Source: Granulimonas faecalis
Lineage (GTDB): Bacteria; Actinomycetota; Coriobacteriia; Coriobacteriales; Atopobiaceae
Direction: 5' to 3'
Length of the DNA stretch: 64,000 nt
NCBI RefSeq assembly: GCF_022834715.1
Contig: NZ_BQKC01000001.1
Location: 594,501 to 658,500 of the forward strand
Below are positions 16,383-54,135 of this stretch, in pieces; position 1 is the first letter of the stretch, and each line of letters starts with the position of its first letter. The position numbers and the translations under genes were made by a program. The notes beneath the pieces were generated by a model. That model was not told the origin of the DNA. It saw only the letters and a list, made by a program, of their open reading frames with translations, and did not search any database.

Positions 16383-16399
16383 CCAGACAAAAAGTAAGG
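16383..16399. promoter_or_regulatory. Degenerate copy of the purine-cluster operator
   Basis: CCAGAC-AAAAA-GTAAGG. It keeps the 6-5-6 layout and the A-tract of the perfect site at 47145 but has lost symmetry. It lies 17 bases before the remnant purine permease, consistent with a control site decaying along with its gene. Confidence 0.4.
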
Positions 16400-16415: not shown

Positions 16416-17415
16416 GTCCTGAGCCTCATCCAGAGCCACCCCCTCGTGGGCCACCTCGGGTCGGGGCTGCCCGTGTTCATGGGCGCGGCCTTCGCCTACG
16501 TGCCCACGCTCACAGCCGTCGCCGGCATGGGCGGCACCGGGGCCGAGGACTTCGGCAGCGCCCGCAACTGGCTCGTCGCCACCGTCACCCTCGTGGCGTG
16601 CGTGGCCTTCGCCAACTTCGGCAAGGGCGTGCTCAAGCTCGGCTCGCTCTTCTGGGGCCTCCTCGTGGGCTACGGGCTCTCCCTGGCCCTGGGCATGGTG
16701 TCGTTCGACGGGCTGGCCGGCGAGGCCTGGTTCGCGCTCCCCGCGTTCACGCCCTTCTCTCTCGAGTTCCAGCCGGCGGCCATCGCCTCGCTCTCCATCG
16801 TGTTCGTCGTGGGTGCCGTGCAGATCGTGGGCGACCTCAACGGCGCCTGCGCCGGCGCCCTCGACCGCGAGCCCGCCGAGCGCGAGGTACTCGCAGAACA
16901 TCGGCATCGTCAACCAGAACAAGGTCATCAACAAGAAGGTGATGGTGGCCGCCTGCCTCATCATGCTCTGCGCCGGCCTCATGCCCAAGGTCGCCTTCGT
17001 GCTCCCGGGCATCCCCAAGGCCGTCATCGGCGGTGCCACCATCAACGTCTTCGCCACCATCACGATGACGGGCGTGCGCCTGCTCACCAAGAACGGCCTG
17101 TCCCAGCGCACGGCCTCCGTCGCGGGCCTCTCCGTCGCCCTGGGCATGGGCATCGCTCTCACCTCCGGCGCCCTGGCCGGCCCCGGGGTGCCCGAGTGGG
17201 CCCAGGGCGTCCTCGGCTCGTCCTCGCTCGTGGTGACCGCCATCACGGCCATCGTGCTCAACCTCGTGCTCCCGGGGCGCGAGGAGGTCGAGCCGGCGGG
17301 GGAGGGCGCGCCCGGAAGCGGCTCGCCGGCCGGCGGCCCGAGGCTCGCGGCGGGCGCCTGGGGGCACCGCGCCCAGGGGCGCCGGGAGCGGGCCCCGTGC
17401 CGGGCCCACCCATGA
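16416..17415 (+). pseudogene. Decayed NCS2-family purine (xanthine/urate) permease
   Basis: Two frames together encode an NCS2 nucleobase-cation symporter fragment. Frame one (from about 16416) reads VLSLIQSHPLVGHLGSGLPVF..., a mid-protein start that lacks the usual first 60-90 residues, and runs to TGDLNG-like VGDLNGACAGALDREPAERE. Near 16888 homology jumps to the frame that opens at 16813, continuing RYSQNIGIVNQNKVINKKVM and GIPKAVIGGATINVFATI. Both segments are standard NCS2 blocks, but the roughly 25-residue GG..G.P.T loop normally between them is missing. So there is an N-terminal truncation plus an internal deletion with frameshift. The closest type is the xanthine/urate branch (LPVFMGAAFAYVPTLTAVAG). 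No functional transporter can be made from it. Confidence 0.85.
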
Positions 17416-24127: not shown

Positions 24128-24588
24128 AGGGGTCTCTCCGGGCGGGTGGGTCGGTATGTCAAGAGGATCCTGTCTGTCATACCCCAAGACCACCCACCGA
24201 GACTCCCTCGTTATATTTCTGCTGGGTCAACGGTGTGCCTTCCCGCGTCGACGGTAGGGATGCCGTGGTCCGGCCATGTCAGATGGATTTCAATCGATTT
24301 TCAATGGATAATCAGATATACCATTTGGCGACAATAAGGGACCGTCCATCCGGATGGCGTCCGTCCGTTGGGTGTAAGGGACCGACTATGGGGCAAACCG
24401 AAAGGCATATGCACTAACAAAGAGTTCGGTCATCGAGGACCGGACCCTGCCCTCGGTCACCCGGTCTGCAGTCCCCTGTATGGAGGTGATGGACGGCTCC
24501 CAGGACGGCGCGTCCTTGTGCGCTCTAGCGAATGTCCTCGGGAGAGGGGCTGCAAGCAAGTCAGCTACCCACCCTGATTGGAAGCGCA
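24128..24588. promoter_or_regulatory. Long structured-looking leader before the purine permease
   Basis: A 461-base gap between divergent operons. The part from about 24200 to 24340 is AT-rich, with GATAAT at 24307-24312 as a possible -10. After it come two copies of TAAGGGACCG (24335-24344 and 24375-24384, 40 bases apart) and the self-complementary CCATCCGGATGG between them. A 7-bp hairpin TTCGGTC/GACCGGA lies around 24426-24445. I find no protein gene and no match to the classical purine riboswitch core. The long transcribed leader suggests RNA-level control of the permease. Confidence 0.45.
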
Positions 24589-25965
24589 ATGGAAGAGAAG
24601 CTCGACTCCCTGTTCCACCTCAAGGAGCGTGGAACCAACGTCAAGACGGAGTTCATCGCCGGCCTCACCACCTTCGTGACGGTGGCCTACGTCCTGGCCG
24701 TCAACCCCTCCGTGCTGGCCGACGCCGGCATGGACCACGGTGCCGTGTTCACCGCGTCGTGCCTTATCTGCATCATCGGCTCGCTGCTCATGGCGTTCCT
24801 GACCAACTTCCCGTTCCTGCTGGTGCCGTCCATGGGCCTCAACGCCTACTTCACCTACACCATCGTGGTGGGCATGGGCTACTCCTGGCAGGTCTCCCTG
24901 GCCGCCGTCATCGTCGAGGGAATCGTCTTCGCCATCATCTCCCTCACCAAGCTGCGCGACCTGCTCGCCGACGCCATCCCCTTCGGCCTGAAGAAGGCCA
25001 TCACCGCCGGCATCGGTCTGTTCATCACCATCATCGGCCTCAAGGGCTCCGGCCTGCTGCAACCCAACGAGTCCACCTACGTCTCCATGGTCTCGTTCAA
25101 CGGTACCGTCCAGGACGGCACCTTCTCCACCCTGGGCATCTGCGCCCTGCTCGCCCTCGTGGGCGTCATCATCACCGCCGTGCTCATGGCCAAGAACGTC
25201 AAGGGCAACATCCTCATCGGCATCGTGGCCACCTGGGTCCTCGGCATGATCTGCGAGGTCTGCGGCGTCTACGTCCCCAACCCCGATGCCGGCTTCTTCA
25301 CCCTGTTCCCCGACTTCTCCAACGGCCTCGCCGTCCCGTCCCTGGCCCCCGTGGCCTTCCAGGCCGACTTCACGCAGTTCGCCACCGTCGGCTTCGTGGC
25401 CGTCGTCATCGCCATCCTGTTCGCCTCCATCTTCGACACCCTGGGCACCCTCATCGGCACCGCCACCAAGGCCGGCCTCGCCGACGAGGACGGCAACATC
25501 CCCGGCATCGGCAAGGGCCTGCTGGCCGAGGCCGTCACCACCATCTGCGCCGGCTTCATCGGCTCCAGCCCCACCTGTGTGGCCGTGGAATCCAACGCCG
25601 GCGTCGCCGAGGGCGGCCGCACCGGCCTCACCGCGGTCTTCGGTGCCGTCATGTTCGCCATCGCCCTGCTCCTCAGCCCCATCTTCCTGGCCATCCCGAG
25701 CTTCGCCACCGCCCCCGCCCTCATCATCGTCGGCTTCCTGATGATCGGTGCCTGCTGCGCCGTGGACTGGGACGACCCCACCGAGGGCGTTCCCGCCTTC
25801 ATCACCCTGGCCGCCATGCCCTTCTTCTACTCCATCGCCGAGGGCGTCTTCCTGGGCATCATCTCCTACACACTCATCAACGCCTGCGCCGGCAAGGCCA
25901 AGAAGGTAAGCCCCCTGCTCTGGGTGCTCACGGTGCTCTTCATTATCAAGTACTTCTTCATCTAA
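24589..25965 (+). CDS. AzgA/PbuG-type purine permease (NCS2 family)
   Basis: A 458-residue membrane protein with about 12 hydrophobic segments. It belongs to the guanine/hypoxanthine/adenine branch: FHLKERGTNVKTEFIAGLTTFVTVAYVLAVNP, VPSMGLNAYFTYT, FGLKKAITAGIGLFITIIGL, ASIFDTLGTLIGTA and GSSPTCVAVESNAGVAEGGRTGLTA are the family landmarks. It would import guanine or hypoxanthine by proton symport. The ATG at 24589 has TTGGAAG upstream. The guanine deaminase gene follows 70 bases later, with a hairpin in between, so import and first catabolic step are linked. Confidence 0.92.
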   Translation: MEEKLDSLFHLKERGTNVKTEFIAGLTTFVTVAYVLAVNPSVLADAGMDHGAVFTASCLICIIGSLLMAFLTNFPFLLVPSMGLNAYFTYTIVVGMGYSWQVSLAAVIVEGIVFAIISLTKLRDLLADAIPFGLKKAITAGIGLFITIIGLKGSGLLQPNESTYVSMVSFNGTVQDGTFSTLGICALLALVGVIITAVLMAKNVKGNILIGIVATWVLGMICEVCGVYVPNPDAGFFTLFPDFSNGLAVPSLAPVAFQADFTQFATVGFVAVVIAILFASIFDTLGTLIGTATKAGLADEDGNIPGIGKGLLAEAVTTICAGFIGSSPTCVAVESNAGVAEGGRTGLTAVFGAVMFAIALLLSPIFLAIPSFATAPALIIVGFLMIGACCAVDWDDPTEGVPAFITLAAMPFFYSIAEGVFLGIISYTLINACAGKAKKVSPLLWVLTVLFIIKYFFI

Positions 25966-25988
25966 CCGTTCTCCGCGCGATTCCGACA

Positions 25989-26014
25989 GGCCGTGCCCCT
26001 GCGGGGGCACGGCC
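25989..26014 (+). terminator. Intercistronic hairpin between purine permease and guanine deaminase
   Basis: An 11-bp perfect stem GGCCGTGCCCC/GGGGCACGGCC with loop TGCG and no T tract. Since it lies only 22 bases before the next start, it more likely tunes or processes the mRNA than ends it fully. Confidence 0.6.
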
Positions 26015-26035
26015 CCGTGAAGGAAAGGAAGCACC

Positions 26036-27313
26036 ATGGCAGAGAAGACCTTCACCATCAAGGGCGACATCGTCTGGTCGGCCGGCCCCACCGAGCTCGC
26101 CGCCGTCAAGGACGGCTACCTGGTGGTCGTCGACGGCCTCGTGGCCGGTGTGTTCCCCGAGCTGCCCGCGGAGTACGCGGACATCGAGCTCGTCGACAAG
26201 ACCGGTATGCTCGTGATGCCCGGTCTCGTGGACGCCCACGTCCACGCCCCCCAGTACGCCTTCCGCGGCACCGGTCTCGACCTCGAGCTTCTCGACTGGC
26301 TCAACACCTACACCTTCCCCGAGGAGGCCAAGTACGCCGACCTCGACTACGCCGAGCGCGCCTACGACATCTTCGTCGACGACCTCAAGAACTCCGAGAC
26401 CTGCCGTGCCATCGTCTTCGGCACGCTCCATGTGCCTGCCACCGAGATGCTCATGGACAAGCTCGAGGCCACCGGTCTCAAGAGCTACGTGGGCAAGGTC
26501 AACATGGACCGCAACGGCGCCCCGGGCCTCGAGGAGGACACCCGCCAGTCCCTGGCCGACACCGAGCAGTGGCTGGCAGACACCCGCGACCGCTACGAGA
26601 ACACCAAGCCCATCCTGACCCCGCGCTTCACCCCGAGCTGCACCGACGAGCTCATGGAGGGCATCGGCAAGCTCAAGGCGGCCCAGAACGTGCCGCTCCA
26701 GAGCCACCTGTCCGAGAACCTCTCCGAGATCGACTGGGTGGCCGAGCTCTGCCCTTGGGCCTCGTGCTACGGCGACACCTACCTGCAGACCGGCCAGCTC
26801 GCGGGCCCGGCAAAGTCCATCATGGCCCACTGCGTCTACTCCACCACCAACGAGGTGGAGATCCTCAAGGGCACCGGCTGCTACATCGCGCTCTGCCCCG
26901 AGTCCAACGCCGACCTGGCCAGCGGCATCGCCCCGGTGCGCATGTACTTCGACCTGGGCATGAACCTGGCCCTGGGCAGCGACGTGGCCGGCGGCCCGCA
27001 CCTGTCCATGTTCTCGGCCATCGCCCACACGGTCTCGCTGTCCAAGCTGCGCTGGCGCTGCGTGGACGAGTCGCTGAAGCCCATCACCATTCCCGAGGCC
27101 ATCTACATCGCCACCGTGGGCGGAGGATCGTTCTTCGGCAAGGTGGGCACCTTCGAGCCCGGCTTCGAGGCCGACATCCTCGTCCTCGACGACTCCGGCA
27201 TCCGCTCCACCGTCGACCTCGACACCCAGCACCGCCTCGAGCGCTTCTGCTACGAGGCCAACGCCGGCGGCCGCGTCGACGCCAAGTTCGTCGCCGGGCG
27301 CCAGATCTTCTAG
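26036..27313 (+). CDS. guaD: Guanine deaminase
   Basis: A 425-residue zinc amidohydrolase that converts guanine to xanthine and ammonia. Metal-binding blocks: PGLVDAHVHAPQYAFRGTG (HxH with the GuaD-specific APQ), LQSHLSEN (His and the substrate Glu), MAHCVYST (His), and GSDVAGGPHLSM (metal Asp). The length and NxNxF-type motifs in LCPESNADLASG match the family. GuaD feeds xanthine directly to the xanthine dehydrogenases encoded 6 kb downstream. A strong hairpin 25 bases after the stop closes the transcript. Confidence 0.95.
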   Translation: MAEKTFTIKGDIVWSAGPTELAAVKDGYLVVVDGLVAGVFPELPAEYADIELVDKTGMLVMPGLVDAHVHAPQYAFRGTGLDLELLDWLNTYTFPEEAKYADLDYAERAYDIFVDDLKNSETCRAIVFGTLHVPATEMLMDKLEATGLKSYVGKVNMDRNGAPGLEEDTRQSLADTEQWLADTRDRYENTKPILTPRFTPSCTDELMEGIGKLKAAQNVPLQSHLSENLSEIDWVAELCPWASCYGDTYLQTGQLAGPAKSIMAHCVYSTTNEVEILKGTGCYIALCPESNADLASGIAPVRMYFDLGMNLALGSDVAGGPHLSMFSAIAHTVSLSKLRWRCVDESLKPITIPEAIYIATVGGGSFFGKVGTFEPGFEADILVLDDSGIRSTVDLDTQHRLERFCYEANAGGRVDAKFVAGRQIF

Positions 27314-27405: not shown

Positions 27406-28077
27406 TCAGCGGCCCCCGTCGTCCTTGGCCCCCTCGGCCGCGGCCTTGGCCTCGTCGAGGTAGCTGTAGAGGGTGTACTTGGAGATGCCGAAGTAGGAGC
27501 ACACCTTCTGGCTGGACTGGCGCACCAGGAAGGCGCCGGAGTCGTTGAGAAAGCCGATGGCCTTGATGCGCTCGGCCTTGTTCATGAGGGCCACGGGCTT
27601 TCCCACCAGGCGCACGCTCTGCTCGATGAGGTCGTCGAGCAGGTCGGAGACGTTGTGGGGGATGGTGGGGGCGTTCTCCTCGGCCGAGGCCTCATGGGCG
27701 GTGAGGGTGCCGATGGAGTTCTGGGCGGCCACGAGCATCGTGATGTCGAAGTTGATGGAGAGCAGGGCCGTGGGCCTGCCGTCGTCGTCGCGGTAGAAGA
27801 CGGTGCTCGACTTCAGGATGCGGCCGTCCTCGGTGCGGGTGATGTAGGCGTAGCGGTCCTGGAGGGCCCGTGGGTCGCCGCTGAGCGACTGGAGCACCAC
27901 GTTGGAGGGGCCGTCCCCGATGAAGCGGCCGCTCACGTGGCCGTTCTCGATGGCCACCACGGTGTGCTGGGGGTCGGCGGCCTCGAGGTCGTGGATGACC
28001 ACCTCGCAGTTGGGGCCGAACTGGGCGGCCAGGCCCTTGGCCAGGCGGCTCAGAAACTCGATTCGTGCTGACGTCAC
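27406..28077 (-). CDS. YheO/DauR-type transcriptional regulator (PAS-like plus HTH)
   Basis: A 223-residue regulator. Residues 1-115 form the YheO-like PAS domain: LAAQFGPNCEVVIHDLEAADPQHTVVAIENGHVSGR, then GDPRALQDRYAYITRTEDGRILKSSTVFYRDDDGRPTALLSINFD. Residues 165-215 form the paired HTH: FLNDSGAFLVRQSSQKVCSYFGISKYTLYSYLDE. The family includes DauR, which represses D-arginine use, so a small nitrogen compound is a plausible ligand. GTG 28077 has GGGAGGAGC upstream. It is divergent from ssnA across a palindrome-rich gap, which makes it the best local candidate for the cluster regulator. That link is inference. Confidence 0.85.
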   Translation of the reverse strand: MTSARIEFLSRLAKGLAAQFGPNCEVVIHDLEAADPQHTVVAIENGHVSGRFIGDGPSNVVLQSLSGDPRALQDRYAYITRTEDGRILKSSTVFYRDDDGRPTALLSINFDITMLVAAQNSIGTLTAHEASAEENAPTIPHNVSDLLDDLIEQSVRLVGKPVALMNKAERIKAIGFLNDSGAFLVRQSSQKVCSYFGISKYTLYSYLDEAKAAAEGAKDDGGR

Positions 28078-28526
28078 GGATGCTCCTCCCACCATGGGGT
28101 CCCGATGGTTAGACAGTATAGAGGTCCGCGGCGGTATCCCCTCGTTTTTTGTCGATATTCCCACAAGGGAATAACGGGGGACAAGGAAAAAAGTAATGAT
28201 TAGGGGAGTGGGGGAGGGCGCCGCCCTTCCGGTCCACGGTGAACGGTCCCTGTAAAAATCAGCCGCCGGCGCTGGTGGTTTCTTCCGCTTGCGCCGCAAA
28301 TCGACCGCACGCCGAGAGCGCGGGGGCATCCCTTCCTTCTCATGCCAAGATGGGATACAGACAAAAAGTTTGGCTCCAAAACGCAAGCTGTATTTTGTCT
28401 GAACGGCCGGACATCCGGTCCGGGTCCTGTCCTTGGGGCGAACACGGATGGCGGGGCATGAGAGGGCCCATGCCACGGTCTGTTTTAGTCGTAGCTGATC
28501 TGCGACACGGCACAAGGAGACACCCT
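28078..28526. promoter_or_regulatory. Divergent control region between the regulator and ssnA
   Basis: A 449-base region. TATTCCC-ACAA-GGGAATA (28156-28173) is a perfect 7-4-7 palindrome near the regulator end. Nearer ssnA is the nested set CAGACAAAA (28358-28366)/TTTTGTCTG (28393-28401) with ATACAG/CTGTAT (28355-28360 and 28388-28393). These overlap the shared 17-bp operator at 28357. The mix of sites indicates at least two control inputs. I see no gene here. Confidence 0.5.
28357..28373. promoter_or_regulatory. Shared purine-cluster operator before ssnA
   Basis: ACAGAC-AAAAA-GTTTGG, 154 bases before the ssnA start. It matches the perfect CCAAAC-AAAAA-GTTTGG site at 47145-47161 in 15 of 17 positions, and the similarity continues for four bases (CTCC) downstream. 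Confidence 0.55.
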
Positions 28527-29870
28527 ATGCTGCTTATCGGTAACGGAAGGGTCATCACCCGCGACGCCGCCAACCCCTACCTCGAGCAGGGGGCCGTCCT
28601 CATCGACGGGGACACCATCGTCGAGGTGGGCGACGAGGCGGCCCTCAAGGCTGCCAACCCCGGCGCCGACTACGTCGACGCCCACGGCGGCGTCATCATG
28701 CCGGGCCTGGTCAACTGCCACACGCACATCTACTCCGGCCTCGCCCGCGGCCTGGCCATCAAGGGCTGCGACCCCCACAACTTCCTCGAGAACCTCGAGC
28801 AGCAGTGGTGGAACATCGACCGTCACCTCACCCTCGACGGCACCCGCGCCTGCGCCTATGCCACGGTCCTCGACTCCATCCGCGACGGTGTGACCTGCAT
28901 CTTCGACCACCACGCCAGCTTCAAGGAGATCCCGGGCTCGCTCTTCGCCATCAAGGACGTCTGCGCCGAGCTCGGCATGCGCGCCTGTCTCTGCTACGAG
29001 GTCTCAGACCGCGACGGCGTCGAGAAGCGCGACCAGGGCATCAAGGAGAACGCCGACTTCGCCCGCTGGTGCGCCAAGGAGGACTCCTCCATGATCGCCG
29101 CCATGTTCGGCGGCCACGCCACCTTCACCCTCTCCGACGAGACCATGGACCTCATGGCCGAGGCCAACGACGGCCTCACGGGCTTCCACATCCACGTGTC
29201 CGAGGGCATGAACGACGTCTACGACTCCCTGGAGAACCACTACGGCGTGCGTCCGGTGGAGCGCCTGCTCAACCACGGCCTGCTCGGTCCCAAGACCATG
29301 CTCGGCCACTGCATCCACGTCACCCCGGCCGAGATGGACATCGTCAAGGAGACCGGCACCTGGCTCGTCAACAACCCTGAGTCCAACATGGGCAACGCCG
29401 TGGGCTGCTCGCCGGTTCTCGAGTTCTTCCGCCGCGGCATCCCCGTGTGCCTGGGCACGGACGCCTACACCAACGACATGCTCGAGAGTCTCAAGGTCTT
29501 CGTGGCCATCCAGCGCCACAACGCCGGCATGCCCAACGTCGCCTGGGGCGAGGCCATGGCCATGTTGTTCCAGAACAACCCCGCCATGGGCGAGAAGTAC
29601 TTCGGCCGTACCCTGGGCAAGCTCGCCCCCGGCGCCGCCGCCGACGTGGCCGTCTTCGACTACAACGTCTTCACCCCGTTCTCCGAGGAGAACGTCGACG
29701 GCCACTTGCTCTTCGGCATGATGGGCAAGAACTGCCGCACCACCGTCATCAACGGCCGCGTGGTCTACAAGGACCGCGAGTTCGTGGACGTGGACGAGGC
29801 GGCCATCAACGCCTGGACCCTCGAGCAGTCGAAGCTCCTCTGGGGCGACCTCAACGACCGTCAGTACTGA
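28527..29870 (+). CDS. ssnA: SsnA-type putative aminohydrolase
   Basis: A 447-residue metal-dependent amidohydrolase of the SsnA group. Landmarks: MPGLVNCHTHIYSGLARGLAIKGCDPHNFLENLEQQWWN (the NCHTHIYSG metal site and SsnA-typical stretch), DHHASFKEIPGSL, HIHVSEG, LGHCIHV and LGTDAYTNDML. SsnA is one of the genes repeatedly found with ygfK, xdh and ygeX/Y/W in anaerobes that break down purines, and gene-deletion work ties the set to urate consumption. Its own reaction is not firmly assigned, and ring-opening or deamination of a purine intermediate is likely. The start at 28527 follows AAGGAGACACCCT. The ygfK gene follows 54 bases later. Confidence 0.93.
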   Translation: MLLIGNGRVITRDAANPYLEQGAVLIDGDTIVEVGDEAALKAANPGADYVDAHGGVIMPGLVNCHTHIYSGLARGLAIKGCDPHNFLENLEQQWWNIDRHLTLDGTRACAYATVLDSIRDGVTCIFDHHASFKEIPGSLFAIKDVCAELGMRACLCYEVSDRDGVEKRDQGIKENADFARWCAKEDSSMIAAMFGGHATFTLSDETMDLMAEANDGLTGFHIHVSEGMNDVYDSLENHYGVRPVERLLNHGLLGPKTMLGHCIHVTPAEMDIVKETGTWLVNNPESNMGNAVGCSPVLEFFRRGIPVCLGTDAYTNDMLESLKVFVAIQRHNAGMPNVAWGEAMAMLFQNNPAMGEKYFGRTLGKLAPGAAADVAVFDYNVFTPFSEENVDGHLLFGMMGKNCRTTVINGRVVYKDREFVDVDEAAINAWTLEQSKLLWGDLNDRQY

Positions 29871-42020: not shown

Positions 42021-42241
42021 CGTTCTTCCAAATAGTGTGCCCATAGCACAAGCGTGGGCCGTACCCTTCGGTTTCCCCTTATTTTCCGTTCGCAGAACCA
42101 AACTGAACGTTTGGGGAACGGGCGTGTAAGGTGGAATGAAAATAAGGGGATGCACTTCAACGGGTTCTCTTATTTTCCCTGTACCGCGGGCGCGGCCCAC
42201 GCCCGGCATCGGATCGTCGTCATCCCGAGAAAGGCGGTCGT
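42021..42241. promoter_or_regulatory. Palindrome-rich control region of the nucleoside ABC importer operon
   Basis: A perfect 12-bp inverted repeat CCCCTTATTTTC (42075-42086)/GAAAATAAGGGG (42138-42149) encloses the shared operator at 42098-42114. The half-site CTTATTTTCC recurs at 42169-42178. The A/T content is far above that of the flanking genes. Two proteins, or one protein looping DNA, could act here. Confidence 0.55.
42098..42114. promoter_or_regulatory. Shared purine-cluster operator before the ABC importer
   Basis: CCAAAC-TGAAC-GTTTGG, a perfect 6-5-6 palindrome with the same arms as the site at 47145, 128 bases before the ATPase start. Confidence 0.6.
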
Positions 42242-43747
42242 ATGGAAGAACTGCTGCGGATGGAGGGGATCAGCAAGCGCTTCGGGACGTTCTACGCCAA
42301 CCACGGCGTGAACCTCGATATCAGGCGCGGCGAGGTCCACACGCTCCTCGGAGAGAACGGGGCGGGCAAGTCCACCCTCATGAACATCCTCATCGGGCTC
42401 TACCAGCCCACGGAGGGCAGGATCTTCATGGGGGGCAAGGAGGTCCACATCACCTCTCCGGCAGTCGCCGTCGAGCACGGCATCGGCATGGTGCACCAGC
42501 ACTTCATGCTCATCGAGGCCATGACGGGCTTCGAGAACATCATCCTCGGCTCCAAGGTCAACCCGTCGCCCCTCATCGAGGAGGCCAAGGACAAGAAGGC
42601 CATCATGGAGCTGGCCGAGCGCTACGGCCTCGAGGTGGACCTCGACCTTCCCGTGAGCGAGATGTCCATCGGCATGCAGCAGCGCGTCGAGATCCTCAAG
42701 GTGCTCTACCGCGGTGCGGAGCTGCTCATCCTCGACGAGCCCACCGCCGTCCTCACCGACCAGGAGGTCGAGGGCCTCTTCGAGATCATGCGGTCGCTCA
42801 CGGCCGAGGGTAAGTCGGTCATCTTCATCTCCCACAAGATGCGCGAGGTCACCCGCATCTCCGACCGGGTCACGGTGCTGCGCGCCGGCGAGTCGGTGGA
42901 GACCCTCGAGATGGCCGACACCACGGGTCAGGAGCTCTCCGACCTCATGATCGGCCACCACTACGTGGAGAGCACCTACGAGAAGGTCGCGGGCGAGCGC
43001 CCGGTCCTCGAGATCAAGGGGGTCTCCTACCACCCCGAGGAGAAGCACGGCGGCCTGAGGGACGTCGACCTCACGGTGCACAGCGGCGAGATCGTGGGCA
43101 TCGCCGGCATCGACGGCAACGGCCAGTCCCAGGTCGCGGCCCTCGTGGCCGGGCTCATCGCGCCGGAGTCGGGGGAGGTGTGGCGCAACGGCGAGAAGGT
43201 GGCCGTGTTCTCCCCGGAGGACTTCATCGACCAGGGCCTCGGCAACATCCCCGAGGACCGCAACAAGATGGGTCTCGTGGGCGACATGACCGTGGCCCAG
43301 AACCTCATCCTCAAGGAGACCGACTCCGACCGGTTCTCCCTCGGCCACGGTCTCTGGCTCAAGTCCGGCGCCATCCAGGAGTTCGCCGAGACCAAGCGCG
43401 CCGAGAACGACATCCGCTGCACCTCGGTCAACCAGACCGCGAGGAGCCTCTCCGGCGGCAACCAGCAGAAGGTGATCCTGGCCAGGGAGCTCGACGGCGA
43501 CCCCGAGGTGCTCGTGGCGGTGTACCCCACCCGCGGCCTCGACATCGGCGCCACCAACTTCATCCACGACTCCATCGTGGCCCAGCGCGACAAGGGCTGC
43601 GCGGTGCTCCTCATCTCCGCCGACTTCGACGAGGTCCTCAAGCTCTCCGACCGCATCGCGGTGCTGTTCGAGGGCGAGATCATGGGCGAGTACCCAGGAG
43701 ACAACCCGCCCATCGACCAGATCAGCCTCGCGATGGCAGGAAAGTAG
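42242..43747 (+). CDS. Nucleoside/purine ABC importer ATP-binding protein (two ABC domains)
   Basis: A 501-residue double ATPase of the BMP/sugar importer group, like NupO. Domain 1 has GENGAGKST (Walker A), SIGMQQRVEILKVL (signature) and LLILDEPTAVLTD (Walker B), all intact. Domain 2 (from about residue 255) has GIDGNGQSQ, LSGGNQQKVILAREL and VLVAVYPTRGLDIG, where the usual DE of Walker B is replaced. Such asymmetry is normal in the family. It heads a four-gene operon with two permeases and a BMP lipoprotein and is preceded by the shared operator. Family substrates are nucleosides and related purine compounds. Confidence 0.92.
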   Translation: MEELLRMEGISKRFGTFYANHGVNLDIRRGEVHTLLGENGAGKSTLMNILIGLYQPTEGRIFMGGKEVHITSPAVAVEHGIGMVHQHFMLIEAMTGFENIILGSKVNPSPLIEEAKDKKAIMELAERYGLEVDLDLPVSEMSIGMQQRVEILKVLYRGAELLILDEPTAVLTDQEVEGLFEIMRSLTAEGKSVIFISHKMREVTRISDRVTVLRAGESVETLEMADTTGQELSDLMIGHHYVESTYEKVAGERPVLEIKGVSYHPEEKHGGLRDVDLTVHSGEIVGIAGIDGNGQSQVAALVAGLIAPESGEVWRNGEKVAVFSPEDFIDQGLGNIPEDRNKMGLVGDMTVAQNLILKETDSDRFSLGHGLWLKSGAIQEFAETKRAENDIRCTSVNQTARSLSGGNQQKVILARELDGDPEVLVAVYPTRGLDIGATNFIHDSIVAQRDKGCAVLLISADFDEVLKLSDRIAVLFEGEIMGEYPGDNPPIDQISLAMAGK

Positions 43748-43757
43748 GTGAGAGGCA

Positions 43758-44885
43758 GTGAGTAGATTCAGATTCACCAAGTTCGGCAAGCGCTACCGCG
43801 ACAAGGCCCTCGGCATCGTCATCCCCGTCGTGGCCATCCTCCTGGCCTTCGTGGTGGGCGCGATCGTCATCCTGTGCCTCGGCAAGAACCCCGTGGAGGG
43901 CTACGCCCTGCTCTTCTCCGGCGCCCTTGGCAACCCCGGGCGCGTGGCCCAGTCGCTCATGAGCGCGTGCCCGCTCATCTTCACGTCGCTCGCCGTGGCG
44001 TTCGCTTACAAGTGCGGCGTCTTCAACCTCGGCGGCGAGGGCCAGTTCATCATGGGCGCCACGGTGACCATGATGGTGCTGCAGGTCACGGGCGCCCAGG
44101 GTGTGCCCGGCGTCCTGCTCGGCATCCTCGTGGGCATCGTCGCCGGCGGCGTCTGGGGCCTCCTGCCCGGCGTCATGAAGATCACCCGCGGCCTCAACGA
44201 ACTCATCACCACGATCATGCTCAACTACGTGGCCACGTTGTTCATGAACTACATCTACTCGGGTCCGTTCCACGACCCCGACTCCGGCAACCTCCAGACG
44301 CCCGCCGTGGCCGACAGCGTGAACCTCATCCGCGTCGACCGCATGCACTTCGGCGTCATCATCGCCATCCTCATGGCGGTCGTGGTCTGGTACGTCATCT
44401 ACAAGACGAGCTTCGGTTTCAAGATCCGCGCCGTGGGCATCAACCCCACCGCCGCGCGGGTCGCGGGCTTCCCCGTCAAGCGCCTCGTGCTCCTCTCGTT
44501 CGTGATCTCGGGCGCCATCGCCGGCTTCGGCGGCTCCGTCGACCTCCTCGGGCGCCAGTACCGCCTCATGACGGGCTTCGGCTCGGGCTTCGGGTTCTCG
44601 GGCGTGGCCATCGCGCTCATCGCCCAGCTCAACCCGATCGGCTCCATGGTGGTAGCCCTGTTCTTCGGCATGCTCACCACCGGCGCCTCCTCCATGCAGG
44701 TGGGCATCATGGTCCCGTCCGCCATCCTCGACATCATCCGCGCCCTCATCATCATCTTCGCGGTGTCCGGCATGGCCCTCATGAAGCTCCCCACCTTCAA
44801 GAACCTGCTCAACCGTCGCCCCATGGATCAGGAGGGCCTCGTGCCCCCGGCCGCCGGTGACCAGAAAGTGGAGGTGAGCGAGTAA
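43758..44885 (+). CDS. Nucleoside ABC importer permease 1 (NupP-like)
   Basis: A 375-residue membrane protein with about nine to ten hydrophobic segments, in the BPD_transp_2 (RbsC/LivH-like) family. Typical blocks: AVAFAYKCGVFNLGGEGQFIMGA, TRGLNELITTIMLNYVATLFMNY and GFKIRAVGINPTAARVAGFPVKR, the last being the cytoplasmic loop that contacts the ATPase. GTG 43758 has GAGAGG upstream. Its stop shares one base with the next start (TAATG), so the permeases are made as a pair. Confidence 0.92.
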   Translation: MSRFRFTKFGKRYRDKALGIVIPVVAILLAFVVGAIVILCLGKNPVEGYALLFSGALGNPGRVAQSLMSACPLIFTSLAVAFAYKCGVFNLGGEGQFIMGATVTMMVLQVTGAQGVPGVLLGILVGIVAGGVWGLLPGVMKITRGLNELITTIMLNYVATLFMNYIYSGPFHDPDSGNLQTPAVADSVNLIRVDRMHFGVIIAILMAVVVWYVIYKTSFGFKIRAVGINPTAARVAGFPVKRLVLLSFVISGAIAGFGGSVDLLGRQYRLMTGFGSGFGFSGVAIALIAQLNPIGSMVVALFFGMLTTGASSMQVGIMVPSAILDIIRALIIIFAVSGMALMKLPTFKNLLNRRPMDQEGLVPPAAGDQKVEVSE

Positions 44886-45820
44886 TGGAAGCCTTCCTCA
44901 GCTCCATGCCCGACGTGCTGGCCACGACCATCCGCATGACGGTACCGCTGCTCTTCGTGGCCCTGGGCGAGCTCTTCTCGGAGCGCGCCGGCCTCGTGAA
45001 CATCGGCCTCGACGGCCTCATGACCATCGGCGCCTTCACCGGCTTCGTGGTGGGCTACCAGACCGGCAACCTCTGGCTCGGTGTCCTGTGCGGCGCGGTG
45101 GCCGGCATAGCCGTGAACATGGTCTACGCCTTCTGCACCGTCTCGCTGCGCGTGGACCAGACGGTGACCGGCATGGCCATCAACATCCTCGCGCCCGGCA
45201 TAGCCACCTTCGCCTACAAGGTCATCTTCGGCGACGGGTCCACCCTCGTCCAGGGCACCACCATGGACAAGCTGGCCGTCCCCGGCCTCTCGGCCATCCC
45301 GTTCGTGGGCGACATCCTGTTCAACCAGACGATCCTCGCCTATCTGGCCTACATCGCCGTGCCCCTCTGCTGGTTCTACTTCGCCCGCACCCGTGGCGGC
45401 CTCAACTTCCGCTCCGTGGGCGAGAACCCCCAGGCGGCCGAGACCCTGGGCATCGACGCCATCAGGACCAAGTACCTCGCCTCGGTGGTCTGCGGCGCCC
45501 TCGCCGGCATCGGCGGCGCCTTCCTCACCCTCTGCTACACGAGCACCTATGCCACCGGCGTGGTGGCAGGCCGCGGCTTCATCGCCCTCGCGGCCGTGAT
45601 CTTCGGCCGCTGGAGCTCGGTGGGCATCCTCGGCGCCACGCTGCTCTTCGGCTTCTTCGACGCCGTGCAGATCGCCCTGCAGGTGTCCGCCCCTGTGGTC
45701 CCGTACCAGTTCTTCGCCATGATCCCCTATGTGTTCACCATCGTCGCCCTGTTCTTCTTCAACGCCCAGAAGGGCGGGCCAAAGGCCAACGGAAAGCCCT
45801 ACTTCCGAGAGGAACGCTGA
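44885..45820 (+). CDS. Nucleoside ABC importer permease 2 (NupQ-like)
   Basis: A 311-residue membrane protein with about eight hydrophobic segments. It matches the second permease of BMP-type importers: VALGELFSERAGLVNIGLDGLMTIGAF, RVDQTVTGMAINILAPGIA, FRSVGENPQAAETLGIDAIRTKY and AGRGFIALAAVIFGRWSSVGILGATLLFGF. It forms the channel with the permease encoded directly upstream. After the stop, an intercistronic hairpin precedes the binding-protein gene. Confidence 0.92.
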   Translation: MEAFLSSMPDVLATTIRMTVPLLFVALGELFSERAGLVNIGLDGLMTIGAFTGFVVGYQTGNLWLGVLCGAVAGIAVNMVYAFCTVSLRVDQTVTGMAINILAPGIATFAYKVIFGDGSTLVQGTTMDKLAVPGLSAIPFVGDILFNQTILAYLAYIAVPLCWFYFARTRGGLNFRSVGENPQAAETLGIDAIRTKYLASVVCGALAGIGGAFLTLCYTSTYATGVVAGRGFIALAAVIFGRWSSVGILGATLLFGFFDAVQIALQVSAPVVPYQFFAMIPYVFTIVALFFFNAQKGGPKANGKPYFREER

Positions 45821-45853: not shown

Positions 45854-45899
45854 AGGAGAGCGCCTCGCACAAGAGGGGCGCGCAGAGAAAGGTGTGTCT

Positions 45900-46916
45900 A
45901 TGAAGAACGTCAAGAAGTGGCTCGGGCTGTTCATGTGCGGCCTGCTCGCCGTGGTCTGCGTGGCCGGCCTCAGCGCCTGCGGCGGTTCCGGCGACTCGGG
46001 TTCCGGCGACTCGGGCACCGAGGGCGGCGGCTCCGGCAAGAAGGTCGCCATGATCCTCGACGGCCCCGTGAATGACGGCGGCTGGGGCGCCTCCTGCTAC
46101 GACGCCATGGTCCAGGCTGCCAAGGACCACGGTTGGGAGACCGCCTATACCGAGAACGTCGCCCAAGCCGACTGGACCACCACCATGCAGGACTACGTCG
46201 ACCAGGGCTACGACCTGGTCATCGCCCCGGGCAACCAGTACACCGCCTCCGTGGAGGACTGCGCCAAGTCCAACCCCGACGCCAAGTTCTGCATCTTCAA
46301 CGACGAGGTGAGCGACTACGACAACATCGAGTGCACCATGCCCGACACCGTGCAGATCGGCCAGATCGCCGGCATCATGGCGGGCCTGACCTCCAAGACC
46401 AACAACATCGGCTTCATCGGCGCCATGGAGCTCGACACCACCCTCAACAAGATCAAGGGCTACACCGAGGCCGCCCAGAAGATCAACCCCGACATCAAGG
46501 TGACCACCGCCTACTCCAACAGCTTCTCCGACGCCGCCAAGGGCAAGGAGCTGGCCACCACCATGATCAACTCCAACAACGTCGACGTCATGTTCGGTGA
46601 CGCCTCCATCGTCGACACCGGCGCCCGCGAGGCCCTCAAGGAGGCCGGTGCCGGCCACTTCGACATCGGCCAGCCCGGCGACATCACCGACACCGACCCC
46701 GAGCTCATCCTGGTCTCCGTGGTCACCGACAACGTGAAGATGACCAACGAGGTGATGGACGACGTGGAGAGCGGCTCCTTCGGCAAGAAGACCATCAAGG
46801 GCGACCTGTCCAACGGCGGCGTCTACGCCGGCGCCGTGTCCGACAAGATCGTCGACGCCGACACCAAGGCCAAGTTCGAGGAGTACGTGGCCCAGCTCAA
46901 GGACGGCAAGTTCTAA
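45900..46916 (+). CDS. BMP-family substrate-binding lipoprotein of the nucleoside importer
   Basis: A 338-residue lipoprotein. Signal peptide MKNVKKWLGLFMCGLLAVVCVAG, lipobox LSAC, then a Gly/Ser-rich linker to about residue 46. The mature domain is BMP/PnrA-like: VAMILDGPVNDGGWGASCYDAM, LVIAPGNQYTASVEDCAKSNPDAKFCIFND, IGFIGAMELDTTLNKIKGYTEAAQ and VDVMFGDASIVDTGAREALKEA. Known members bind purine nucleosides. The ATG at 45900 follows GAGAAAGGTGTGTCT. Fourth and last gene of the importer operon, closed by the hairpin at 46964. Confidence 0.92.
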   Translation: MKNVKKWLGLFMCGLLAVVCVAGLSACGGSGDSGSGDSGTEGGGSGKKVAMILDGPVNDGGWGASCYDAMVQAAKDHGWETAYTENVAQADWTTTMQDYVDQGYDLVIAPGNQYTASVEDCAKSNPDAKFCIFNDEVSDYDNIECTMPDTVQIGQIAGIMAGLTSKTNNIGFIGAMELDTTLNKIKGYTEAAQKINPDIKVTTAYSNSFSDAAKGKELATTMINSNNVDVMFGDASIVDTGAREALKEAGAGHFDIGQPGDITDTDPELILVSVVTDNVKMTNEVMDDVESGSFGKKTIKGDLSNGGVYAGAVSDKIVDADTKAKFEEYVAQLKDGKF

Positions 46917-47108: not shown

Positions 47109-47136
47109 TTGCAACCCCCCATGAACAGACTATAGT
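47109..47136 (+). promoter_or_regulatory. Candidate promoter of the ygeX operon
   Basis: TTGCAA (47109-47114), 16-base spacer, TATAGT (47131-47136). The predicted start of transcription, near 47143, falls at the edge of the operator at 47145-47161. Confidence 0.5.
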
Positions 47137-47144
47137 TGAGGTGT

Positions 47145-47161
47145 CCAAACAAAAAGTTTGG
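47145..47161. promoter_or_regulatory. Shared purine-cluster operator before ygeX (best copy)
   Basis: CCAAAC-AAAAA-GTTTGG, a perfect 6-5-6 palindrome nine bases downstream of a candidate -10 element and 47 bases before the ygeX start. The position fits repression by blocking promoter clearance. Confidence 0.65.
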
Positions 47162-47207
47162 CTCCCAAATTGAACGTGTGGTCAATGTCGCAGGGAAGGG
47201 AACGTCC

Positions 47208-48437
47208 ATGCAGCTGCCAGAGATGAAATGGGTCCTCAACAAGTGCCCCAAGAGCGAGGACTCCAACCTTCCCGTCATGTCCCTGGAGAACGTGGCCGCA
47301 GCCCGTGCCTTTCACCAGGGCTTCCCGCAGTACTCGGTGACCCCCCTCGCCGACCTCGATGCCATGGCCGGGCGCCTCGGCCTCGGCGGCCTCTACGTCA
47401 AGGACGAGAGCTACCGCTTCGGCCTCAACGCCTTCAAGGTCCTCGGCGGCTCCTTCGCCATGGCCCGCTACATCGCGCAGCAGACCGGCCGCGACATCGC
47501 CGACACCACCTTCGACTACCTCACCGGAGACGACCTGCAGAAGGACTTCGGTCAGGCCACCTTCTTCACCGCCACCGACGGCAACCACGGCCGCGGCGTG
47601 GCCTGGGCCGCCAACCGTCTCGGCCAGAAGGCCGTCGTGCACATGCCCAAGGGCTCCACGCAGACCCGCCTCGAGAACATCGCCAAGGAGGGTGCCGAGG
47701 TCACCATCGAGGAGCTCAACTACGACGACTGCGTGCGCCTGGCCGCCAAGGAGGCCGACGAGACCGAGCACGGCGTCATCGTCCAGGACACCGCCTGGGA
47801 CGGCTACGAGGAGATTCCCTCCTGGATCATGCAGGGCTACGGCACCATGAGCTCCGAGGCCGCCGAGCAGCTCCGCGCCCTCGAGGTCAACCGTCCCACC
47901 CACGTGTTCGTCCAGGCCGGCGTGGGCTCGCTCGCCAGCTCCGTCGTGGGCTACTTCGCCAACCTGTTCCCCGGCTGCCCGCCCACGTTCGTGGTCATGG
48001 AGGCCGGCGCCGCCGACTGCCTGTACCAGAGCGCCAAGGCCGCCGACGGCGAGCCGCGCATCGTGGGCGGGGACCTTGAGACCATCATGGCCGGCCTTGC
48101 CTGCGGCGAGCCCAACACCATCGGCTGGGACATCCTGCGCAACCACGTCACCGCCTTCGTCAGCTGCCCCGACTGGGTGAGCGCCAAGGGCATGCGCATG
48201 CTCGCCGCGCCCCTGGCCGGCGACCCGGCCGTCACGTCCGGCGAGTCCGGCGCCGTGGGCATGGGCGTGGTCTCCACCATCATGGAGGACCCCGACTACG
48301 CCGACCTCAAGGAGGCCCTGGGCCTCGACGGCAGCTCCCGCGTGCTGCTCTTCTCCACCGAGGGCGACACCGACCCCGTCCGCTACCGCGAGGTGGTCTG
48401 GGGCGGCGCCTACCCGACCGAGGACATCGAGCGGTAG
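47208..48437 (+). CDS. ygeX: 2,3-diaminopropionate ammonia-lyase
   Basis: A 409-residue fold-type II PLP enzyme that converts 2,3-diaminopropionate to pyruvate and two ammonia. The PLP Lys is Lys77 in ESYRFGLNAFKVLGGSFA, which is diagnostic for the family. TATDGNHGRGVAWAA is the phosphate/substrate loop, and VFVQAGVGSLASSVVGYF and SGESGAVGMG complete the cofactor pocket. In purine-degrading anaerobes this gene acts late, after ring opening, and releases 2-aminoacrylate, which RidA (53752) can clear. It is first in the ygeX-ygeY-ygeW run and has its own promoter and operator. Confidence 0.95.
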   Translation: MQLPEMKWVLNKCPKSEDSNLPVMSLENVAAARAFHQGFPQYSVTPLADLDAMAGRLGLGGLYVKDESYRFGLNAFKVLGGSFAMARYIAQQTGRDIADTTFDYLTGDDLQKDFGQATFFTATDGNHGRGVAWAANRLGQKAVVHMPKGSTQTRLENIAKEGAEVTIEELNYDDCVRLAAKEADETEHGVIVQDTAWDGYEEIPSWIMQGYGTMSSEAAEQLRALEVNRPTHVFVQAGVGSLASSVVGYFANLFPGCPPTFVVMEAGAADCLYQSAKAADGEPRIVGGDLETIMAGLACGEPNTIGWDILRNHVTAFVSCPDWVSAKGMRMLAAPLAGDPAVTSGESGAVGMGVVSTIMEDPDYADLKEALGLDGSSRVLLFSTEGDTDPVRYREVVWGGAYPTEDIER

Positions 48438-53751: not shown

Positions 53752-54135
53752 ATGAACAACCGCGCCGTCACCACCGTCAACGCCCCCGCCGCCATCGGCC
53801 CCTACAGCCAGGCCGTGGCCGCCGAGGGTCTCTCGATCAACGTCTCGGGCCAGCTGCCCATCGACCCGGCCACCGGCGAGTTCGCCGGCGACGACATCGC
53901 CAGCCAGACCCGTCAGAGCCTCACCAACGTCAAGAACATCCTCGCCGAGGCCGGCGCCTCCATGGCCGACGTCGTGGAGACCACCGTGCTGCTCACCGAC
54001 ATCGCCGAGTTCGGCGCCATGAACGAGGTCTATGCCGAGTTCTTCTCCGAGCCCTTCCCGGCCCGCGCCGCCTTTCAGGTGGTGGCCCTGCCCAAGGGCG
54101 CCAAGGTCGAGATCAAGGCCGTGGCCCGCGTCTAG
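53752..54135 (+). CDS. ridA: RidA family enamine/imine deaminase
   Basis: A 127-residue RidA/YjgF protein. Conserved blocks: NAPAAIGPYSQAV, NVSGQLPIDPATG, TRQSLTNVKNILAEAG, TTVLLTDIAEFGAMNEVYAEFF and PARAAFQVVALPKGAKVEIKAVA, which includes the Arg that holds the substrate carboxylate and the catalytic Glu. It hydrolyses 2-aminoacrylate and similar imines, which the diaminopropionate lyase encoded at 47208 would release. The ATG at 53752 has GATAGGAG upstream. It ends the purine section and is followed by a hairpin repeat and a strong terminator. Confidence 0.93.
   Translation: MNNRAVTTVNAPAAIGPYSQAVAAEGLSINVSGQLPIDPATGEFAGDDIASQTRQSLTNVKNILAEAGASMADVVETTVLLTDIAEFGAMNEVYAEFFSEPFPARAAFQVVALPKGAKVEIKAVARV

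Follow-up and report, generated by a model that had tools for sequence, protein, structure and literature searches.

A conserved 17-bp palindrome, probable operator of a YheO-like repressor, in the purine-breakdown gene cluster of Granulimonas faecalis and its relatives

Our work suggests that the 17-bp palindrome CCAAAC-N5-GTTTGG, found upstream of purine genes in Granulimonas faecalis, is quite probably the operator of a YheO-like repressor encoded in the same region, which would occupy it in tandem at ygeX, be released by a ligand and bind weaker sites at other units. The region analysed is a stretch of 64,000 nucleotides (hereafter the window). Judged from comparative sequence data, the palindromes in it form a real and conserved set of predicted operators of a purine-breakdown regulon. 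The predicted sites, scored with a matrix trained on 58 sites, all from other genomes, and then run over the window, are the following:

16383..16399, + strand: putative relic operator beside a dead purine permease, CCAGACAAAAAGTAAGG (score 15.3)
24413..24429, + strand: possible weak operator before the intact purine permease-guaD unit, ACTAACAAAGAGTTCGG (9/12 match; score 9.4; ~0.1 expected per window)
28357..28373, + strand: predicted operator in the yheO-ssnA gap, ACAGACAAAAAGTTTGG (score 21.6)
42098..42114, + strand: perfect palindrome before a nucleoside-type ABC importer (BMP family), CCAAACTGAACGTTTGG (exact match; score 20.2)
47109..47136, + strand: predicted ygeX promoter, TTGCAA-16-TATAGT (consensus scan, 0.0 expected in shuffles; geometry shared with 21/33 relatives' sites)
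47145..47161, + strand: predicted primary ygeX operator, CCAAACAAAAAGTTTGG (perfect palindrome; same place in relatives; score 32.8)
47165..47181, + strand: candidate second, weaker ygeX operator, CCAAATTGAACGTGTGG (10/12 match, exactly 20 bp after the first site; score 7.5)

The genes concerned are:

16446..17331, + strand: dead purine permease, of a subfamily other than that of the intact one (tblastn with relatives' permeases)
24532..25962, + strand: intact xanthine/uracil-type permease (Pfam PF00860, E 3e-35)
26036-27313: guanine deaminase (guaD), 3' of the intact permease (guanine deaminase family)
27406..28077, - strand: proposed regulator gene, PAS_6 + HTH_22, YheO-like (Pfam E 5e-36 and 3e-19; co-occurrence and position of sites in relatives)
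28527..29870, + strand: ssnA, first gene of the ssnA-ygfK-xdh unit (NCBIfam PRK07203.1, 624 bits)
42242..43747, + strand: importer ATPase, B6/nucleoside-type ABC (NCBIfam and Pfam)
43758-45820: importer permeases (NCBIfam and Pfam)
45858-46916: importer BMP lipoprotein (NCBIfam and Pfam)
47208..48437, + strand: ygeX, diaminopropionate ammonia-lyase, heading the ygeX-ygeY-ygeW-hyuA-ridA unit (NCBIfam TIGR03528, 622 bits)
53752-54135: RidA/L-PSP gene in the ygeX unit

A frame at 24480-26216, considered as a conserved unknown, was rejected, the real gene being the permease at 24532-25962 in a different frame.

The preliminary description of this DNA had singled out four sites, namely perfect palindromes at 47145-47161 and 42098-42114, a 15/17 match to the first at 28357-28373 and a decayed version at 16383-16399. 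All were found as described, and they are the window's top four for the foreign-trained matrix, the best of 30 simulated windows reaching 13.2; 24413-24429 and 47165-47181 come next. It had also proposed a genome-wide motif search, with random occurrence as the outcome that would speak against a regulon. Pattern searches were run over the whole genome, and the matrix scan over the window. The exact 6-5-6 form occurs only twice in the 2.23-Mb genome, at 42098 and 47145, both in the window and before purine genes, and the reversed-pattern control gave 0 occurrences. Random occurrence thus fails for the exact form and holds for looser ones: matches with at most three mismatches in the window (12 versus 12.3 expected) and with at most two in the genome (16 versus 17 for the reversed pattern) are at background level and uninformative, and matching with two or three mismatches was left out as evidence. 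That the palindromes arose by chance, a reading in keeping with this background, has a practically negligible probability, as they are conserved across families and phyla with controls near zero. Chance is already refuted by these comparisons for the ygeX and ssnA sites; it may still account for 24413-24429 and, with a small probability, for 42098-42114. Beyond the window, the genome has a single one-mismatch site (C1:1740337), flanked by PTS genes and by a gene that looks DeoR-type (translation judged by eye); it was taken as a chance match.

The source genome is that of a member of the Atopobiaceae, a family with Olsenella, Parafannyhessea, Lancefieldella and Thermophilibacter among its named members. 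In most of these named members the motif stands before ygeX, ygeY or a purine permease gene, and it is also present before ygeX in some Lachnospiraceae and in one Subdoligranulum-type genome (Clostridia). Its A/T-spacer form, with at most one mismatch, was present in 58 of 140 family genomes, the reversed pattern in one. When sites with at least 10 of the 12 arm bases were counted within 200 bp upstream of ygeX, they occurred at 21 of 28 loci of the family (0.26 expected) and at 11 of 60 loci of Clostridia (0.98 expected); the same count upstream of ygeW gave no excess. Several genomes thus have a conserved palindrome before genes of related function, as would be expected of a regulon.

It was originally proposed that one repressor controls all the units that have one of the four sites. 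This idea fares well at ygeX and ssnA, whose sites are conserved: 28357-28373 has the counterpart TCAGACAAAAAGTTAGG in the nearest relative, and weaker sites recur in the yheO-ssnA gap elsewhere. It fares less well at the importer, whose site has no counterpart in either of the two relatives checked (the nearest one and G021), and at 16383-16399, which stands at a dead gene. It is the perfection of 42098-42114 that makes it a probable operator. The dead permease is truncated and frameshifted, being spread over two frames, with its N-terminal part lost and a frameshift near 16880; intact copies of its subfamily exist in relatives, where the motif lies ~490-515 bp before the aligned coding stretch. 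The site at 24413-24429, absent from the preliminary description, is a possible fifth target. We also observed a perfect 13-bp inverted repeat, TCCCCTTATTTTC, at 42074-42086 and 42138-42150, on both sides of the importer palindrome.

Outside the purine cluster, a perfect palindrome, CCAAACAATATGTTTGG (L209:5536-5552), was noticed in one genus (g34) ~200 bp before carA, which encodes the small chain of carbamoyl-phosphate synthase, and it recurs in most of that genus. Among the single-mismatch sites of relatives (L195:1501-1517, L196:1501-1517 and L187:1501-1517), the adjoining genes were a Sulf_transp gene, guaD and one that is XdhC-like. The data suggest that in relatives the regulon may reach selenium- and molybdenum-linked genes. 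In the search tables, some permease, yheO or ygeX frames of three loci (L038, L178 and L181) show in-frame stops (TAG or others) at their ends.

The position of the sites relative to predicted promoters is also shared. The usual layout at the relatives' ygeX or ygeY comprises a TTG-type -35 hexamer, a 16-bp spacer, a -10 hexamer, ~8 bp, and then the operator over the predicted transcription start; at 21 of 33 such sites, the operator is preceded by a -10-like hexamer whose first base is 13 or 14 bp away. The ygeX promoter of the window matches this layout, and the 17-mer begins 9 bases after its -10 hexamer, so that the overlap of the site with the ygeX transcription start, already pointed out in the preliminary description, holds as a prediction. 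For these predicted promoters, the operator thus overlaps the promoter or the transcription start, as would be expected of the target of a repressor. Secondary sites around the 33 relatives' sites peak most strongly at +20, with other peaks at -62 and -82 that represent, in some species, an extra pair above the promoter. These spacings are close to whole helical turns, which suggests that dimers may cooperate on one face of the DNA. The site at 47165-47181, which the preliminary description did not list, has a score that is not significant alone, and its offset coincides with the strongest of these peaks.

The primary ygeX site would span roughly positions +2 to +18 of the predicted transcript, where a stem of 6 bp could form, and the palindrome might instead act at the RNA level, as a hairpin at the transcript's 5' end. 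We consider this highly improbable: the 61 sites compared show 68 pair-breaking changes on one side, against 8 compensatory changes, and extra copies occur upstream of promoters. The hairpin was rejected on the scarcity of compensatory change.

The favoured binder, the protein encoded at 27406-28077, divergently from ssnA, contains a PF08348 (PAS_6) domain at residues 7-120 (E 5.2e-36) and a full-length PF13309 (HTH_22) domain at residues 146-208 (E 2.9e-19), an architecture that is YheO-like. It had been put forward earlier as the nearest candidate, under the label 'YheO/DauR-type'. The first half of this label is justified by the architecture and the second reduces to a family resemblance, as the protein matched no NCBIfam family at E 0.001. 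Linkage to D-arginine dehydrogenase, expected of DauR proper, was not found: the neighbours are ssnA and guaD in the window, and ssnA, ygeX or a purine permease in relatives. A search for related solved structures found none.

The candidacy itself has gained from the tracking of yheO by the sites, which is read directly from the genomes, as are the positions and conservation of the sites. Orthologues (E below 1e-60; 53-88% identity) are present in 67 of the 140 family genomes, and sites with at most one mismatch occur in 52/67 yheO-positive versus 6/73 yheO-negative genomes (Fisher 5e-18, kinship ignored). The six exceptions have no purine gene beside the site in the loci examined, while 15 of the 67 yheO-positive genomes lack a strong site, and the three inspected all have degenerate ones. 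In one genus (g33), about ten genomes have just one perfect palindrome each, placed 56-67 bp ahead of the yheO orthologue and with a permease-ssnA-ygfK unit on its other side, and genomes of this genus without a strict site have degenerate sites in the yheO gap. Conversely, one relative (G077) with ygeX (73% identity) and no yheO has no site within 15 kb.

The sites could nevertheless be true operators bound by some other transcription factor encoded elsewhere, yheO being only a target and a pathway neighbour. The tracking is partly confounded, as yheO is present in 62 of the 65 genomes with ygeX, and because the two genes are so often inherited together, co-occurrence alone cannot tell a regulator from a passenger. 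However, sites still adjoin yheO in two genomes in which no ygeX was found (G093 and G098, both incomplete assemblies), sites occupy the yheO gap in two families, and in those window frames that were scanned, Pfam detected no other transcription-factor domain.

What most strongly ties the operator to the YheO-like protein is a second family (f3), whose yheO orthologues were not used in training the matrix. The same matrix was applied to 16 loci of 3.5-12 kb each. At every one of the 16, yheO lies beside ygeX in divergent orientation, and the gap between the two always contains 2-4 sites of score at least 14; no site was found outside the gap in the 3.5-12 kb examined, ~0.05 being expected per locus. 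One site lies ~100 bp before ygeX and another, in most loci, 10-60 bp before yheO, where it often abuts the ribosome-binding site. Sites upstream of the regulator's own gene were thus found both in genus g33 and in family f3. A further family (f6), in which yheO is 40-47% identical, yielded a site at one of four loci.

The regulator's DNA-binding domain is more conserved than its PAS domain (0.86 versus 0.75), and its segment ISKYTLYSYLDE is preserved across phyla. In Flavonifractor-type Clostridia, the recognition helix of yheO is nearly unchanged, yet the palindrome is a different one, CCTAAAAATTTTTTAG, found upstream of ssnA in three loci (L069, L074 and L075) and also of ygeX in the first of these. 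This difference speaks for another binder. Taken with the points above, such a binder appears rather improbable, and the named regulator very probably binds the sites.

We infer binding, repression and induction by the YheO-like protein as follows. Its dimers would bind CCAAAC-W5-GTTTGG sites and, at ygeX, would sit in tandem, 20 bp or about two helical turns apart, over the transcription start just past the -10 hexamer. When no inducing signal is present, the bound protein would block RNA polymerase at the ygeX unit, and weaker sites would do the same for the ssnA-ygfK-xdh and permease-guaD units and probably for the importer. The protein would be released once its PAS_6 domain senses a small-molecule ligand, for which a metabolite of the purine pathway is the natural guess. 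In many relatives, the regulator would also control its own gene. Autoregulation seems less clear within the window, because the yheO-ssnA gap has one good site, upstream of both genes by 279 bp (yheO) and 153 bp (ssnA).

Repression is the likely mode of action, because the operators sit on the predicted transcription start and because loss of a published YheO-like protein raised the expression of a neighbouring gene (PMC4519771). Alternatively, the YheO-like protein could bind these sites as an activator or a dual regulator. Some relatives have additional sites 62 and 82 bp above the main one, near and above the -35 hexamer, and family f3 has one ~52 bp upstream, which would suit such a role. 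However, the best-conserved site follows the -10 hexamer, a position at which an activator would get in the way, the window has no upstream sites, and Cj1387c, the one characterized relative found, behaves as a negative regulator (PMC4519771). Activation or a dual role is in our opinion unlikely, and simple repression remains the preferred reading.

Urate-degrading gut anaerobes affect host urate levels, and the papers found on them give enzymes and no dedicated regulator. With a defined operator and a named candidate, the switching of this pathway becomes a simple question of binding and reporter assays. The matrix can be used for regulon mapping across many genomes, and a DNA target is now offered for the widespread PAS_6-HTH_22 family, for which we found no published operator.

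In Pseudomonas aeruginosa, DauR is a YheO-type regulator of the D-arginine catabolism operon, described as a repressor relieved by the substrate. Like DauR, the 27406-28077 protein is YheO-type and stands with catabolic genes, but the genes and ligand of DauR differ, and the likeness is at family level. Cj1387c of Campylobacter jejuni, also YheO-like, shares the PAS_6-HTH_22 architecture and has a negative effect on a linked gene: its loss raised expression of the RidA-type neighbour (PMC4519771). YheO-like regulators are often linked to a RidA/L-PSP gene, and one is also present in the ygeX unit here. In contrast, the pathway of Cj1387c is that of flagellar interactions, and the parts of the text searched report no operator (PMC4519771). 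The enzyme set of the window is the same as that of the described anaerobic reductive urate/purine clusters (ygeX, ygeY, ygeW, ssnA, ygfK, xdh and hyuA), for which a Crp site in Escherichia coli is reported and no dedicated regulator or operator is mentioned (PMC12507026). In the literature searched, we found no published regulator or operator for the urate/purine cluster and no operator for YheO or DauR. The kind of system is thus ordinary, and the specific pairing of operator and regulator appears undescribed in that literature. It seems to us an even matter whether the whole picture will hold, namely a repressor of the YheO type that is dedicated to anaerobic purine breakdown, autoregulated and responsive to urate/purines, with tandem operators in helical phase, spread across Coriobacteriia and part of the Clostridia and reaching carA and selenium-linked genes in some lineages. 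If true, the PAS_6-HTH_22 family would gain its first defined operator and a ligand from the purine pathway.
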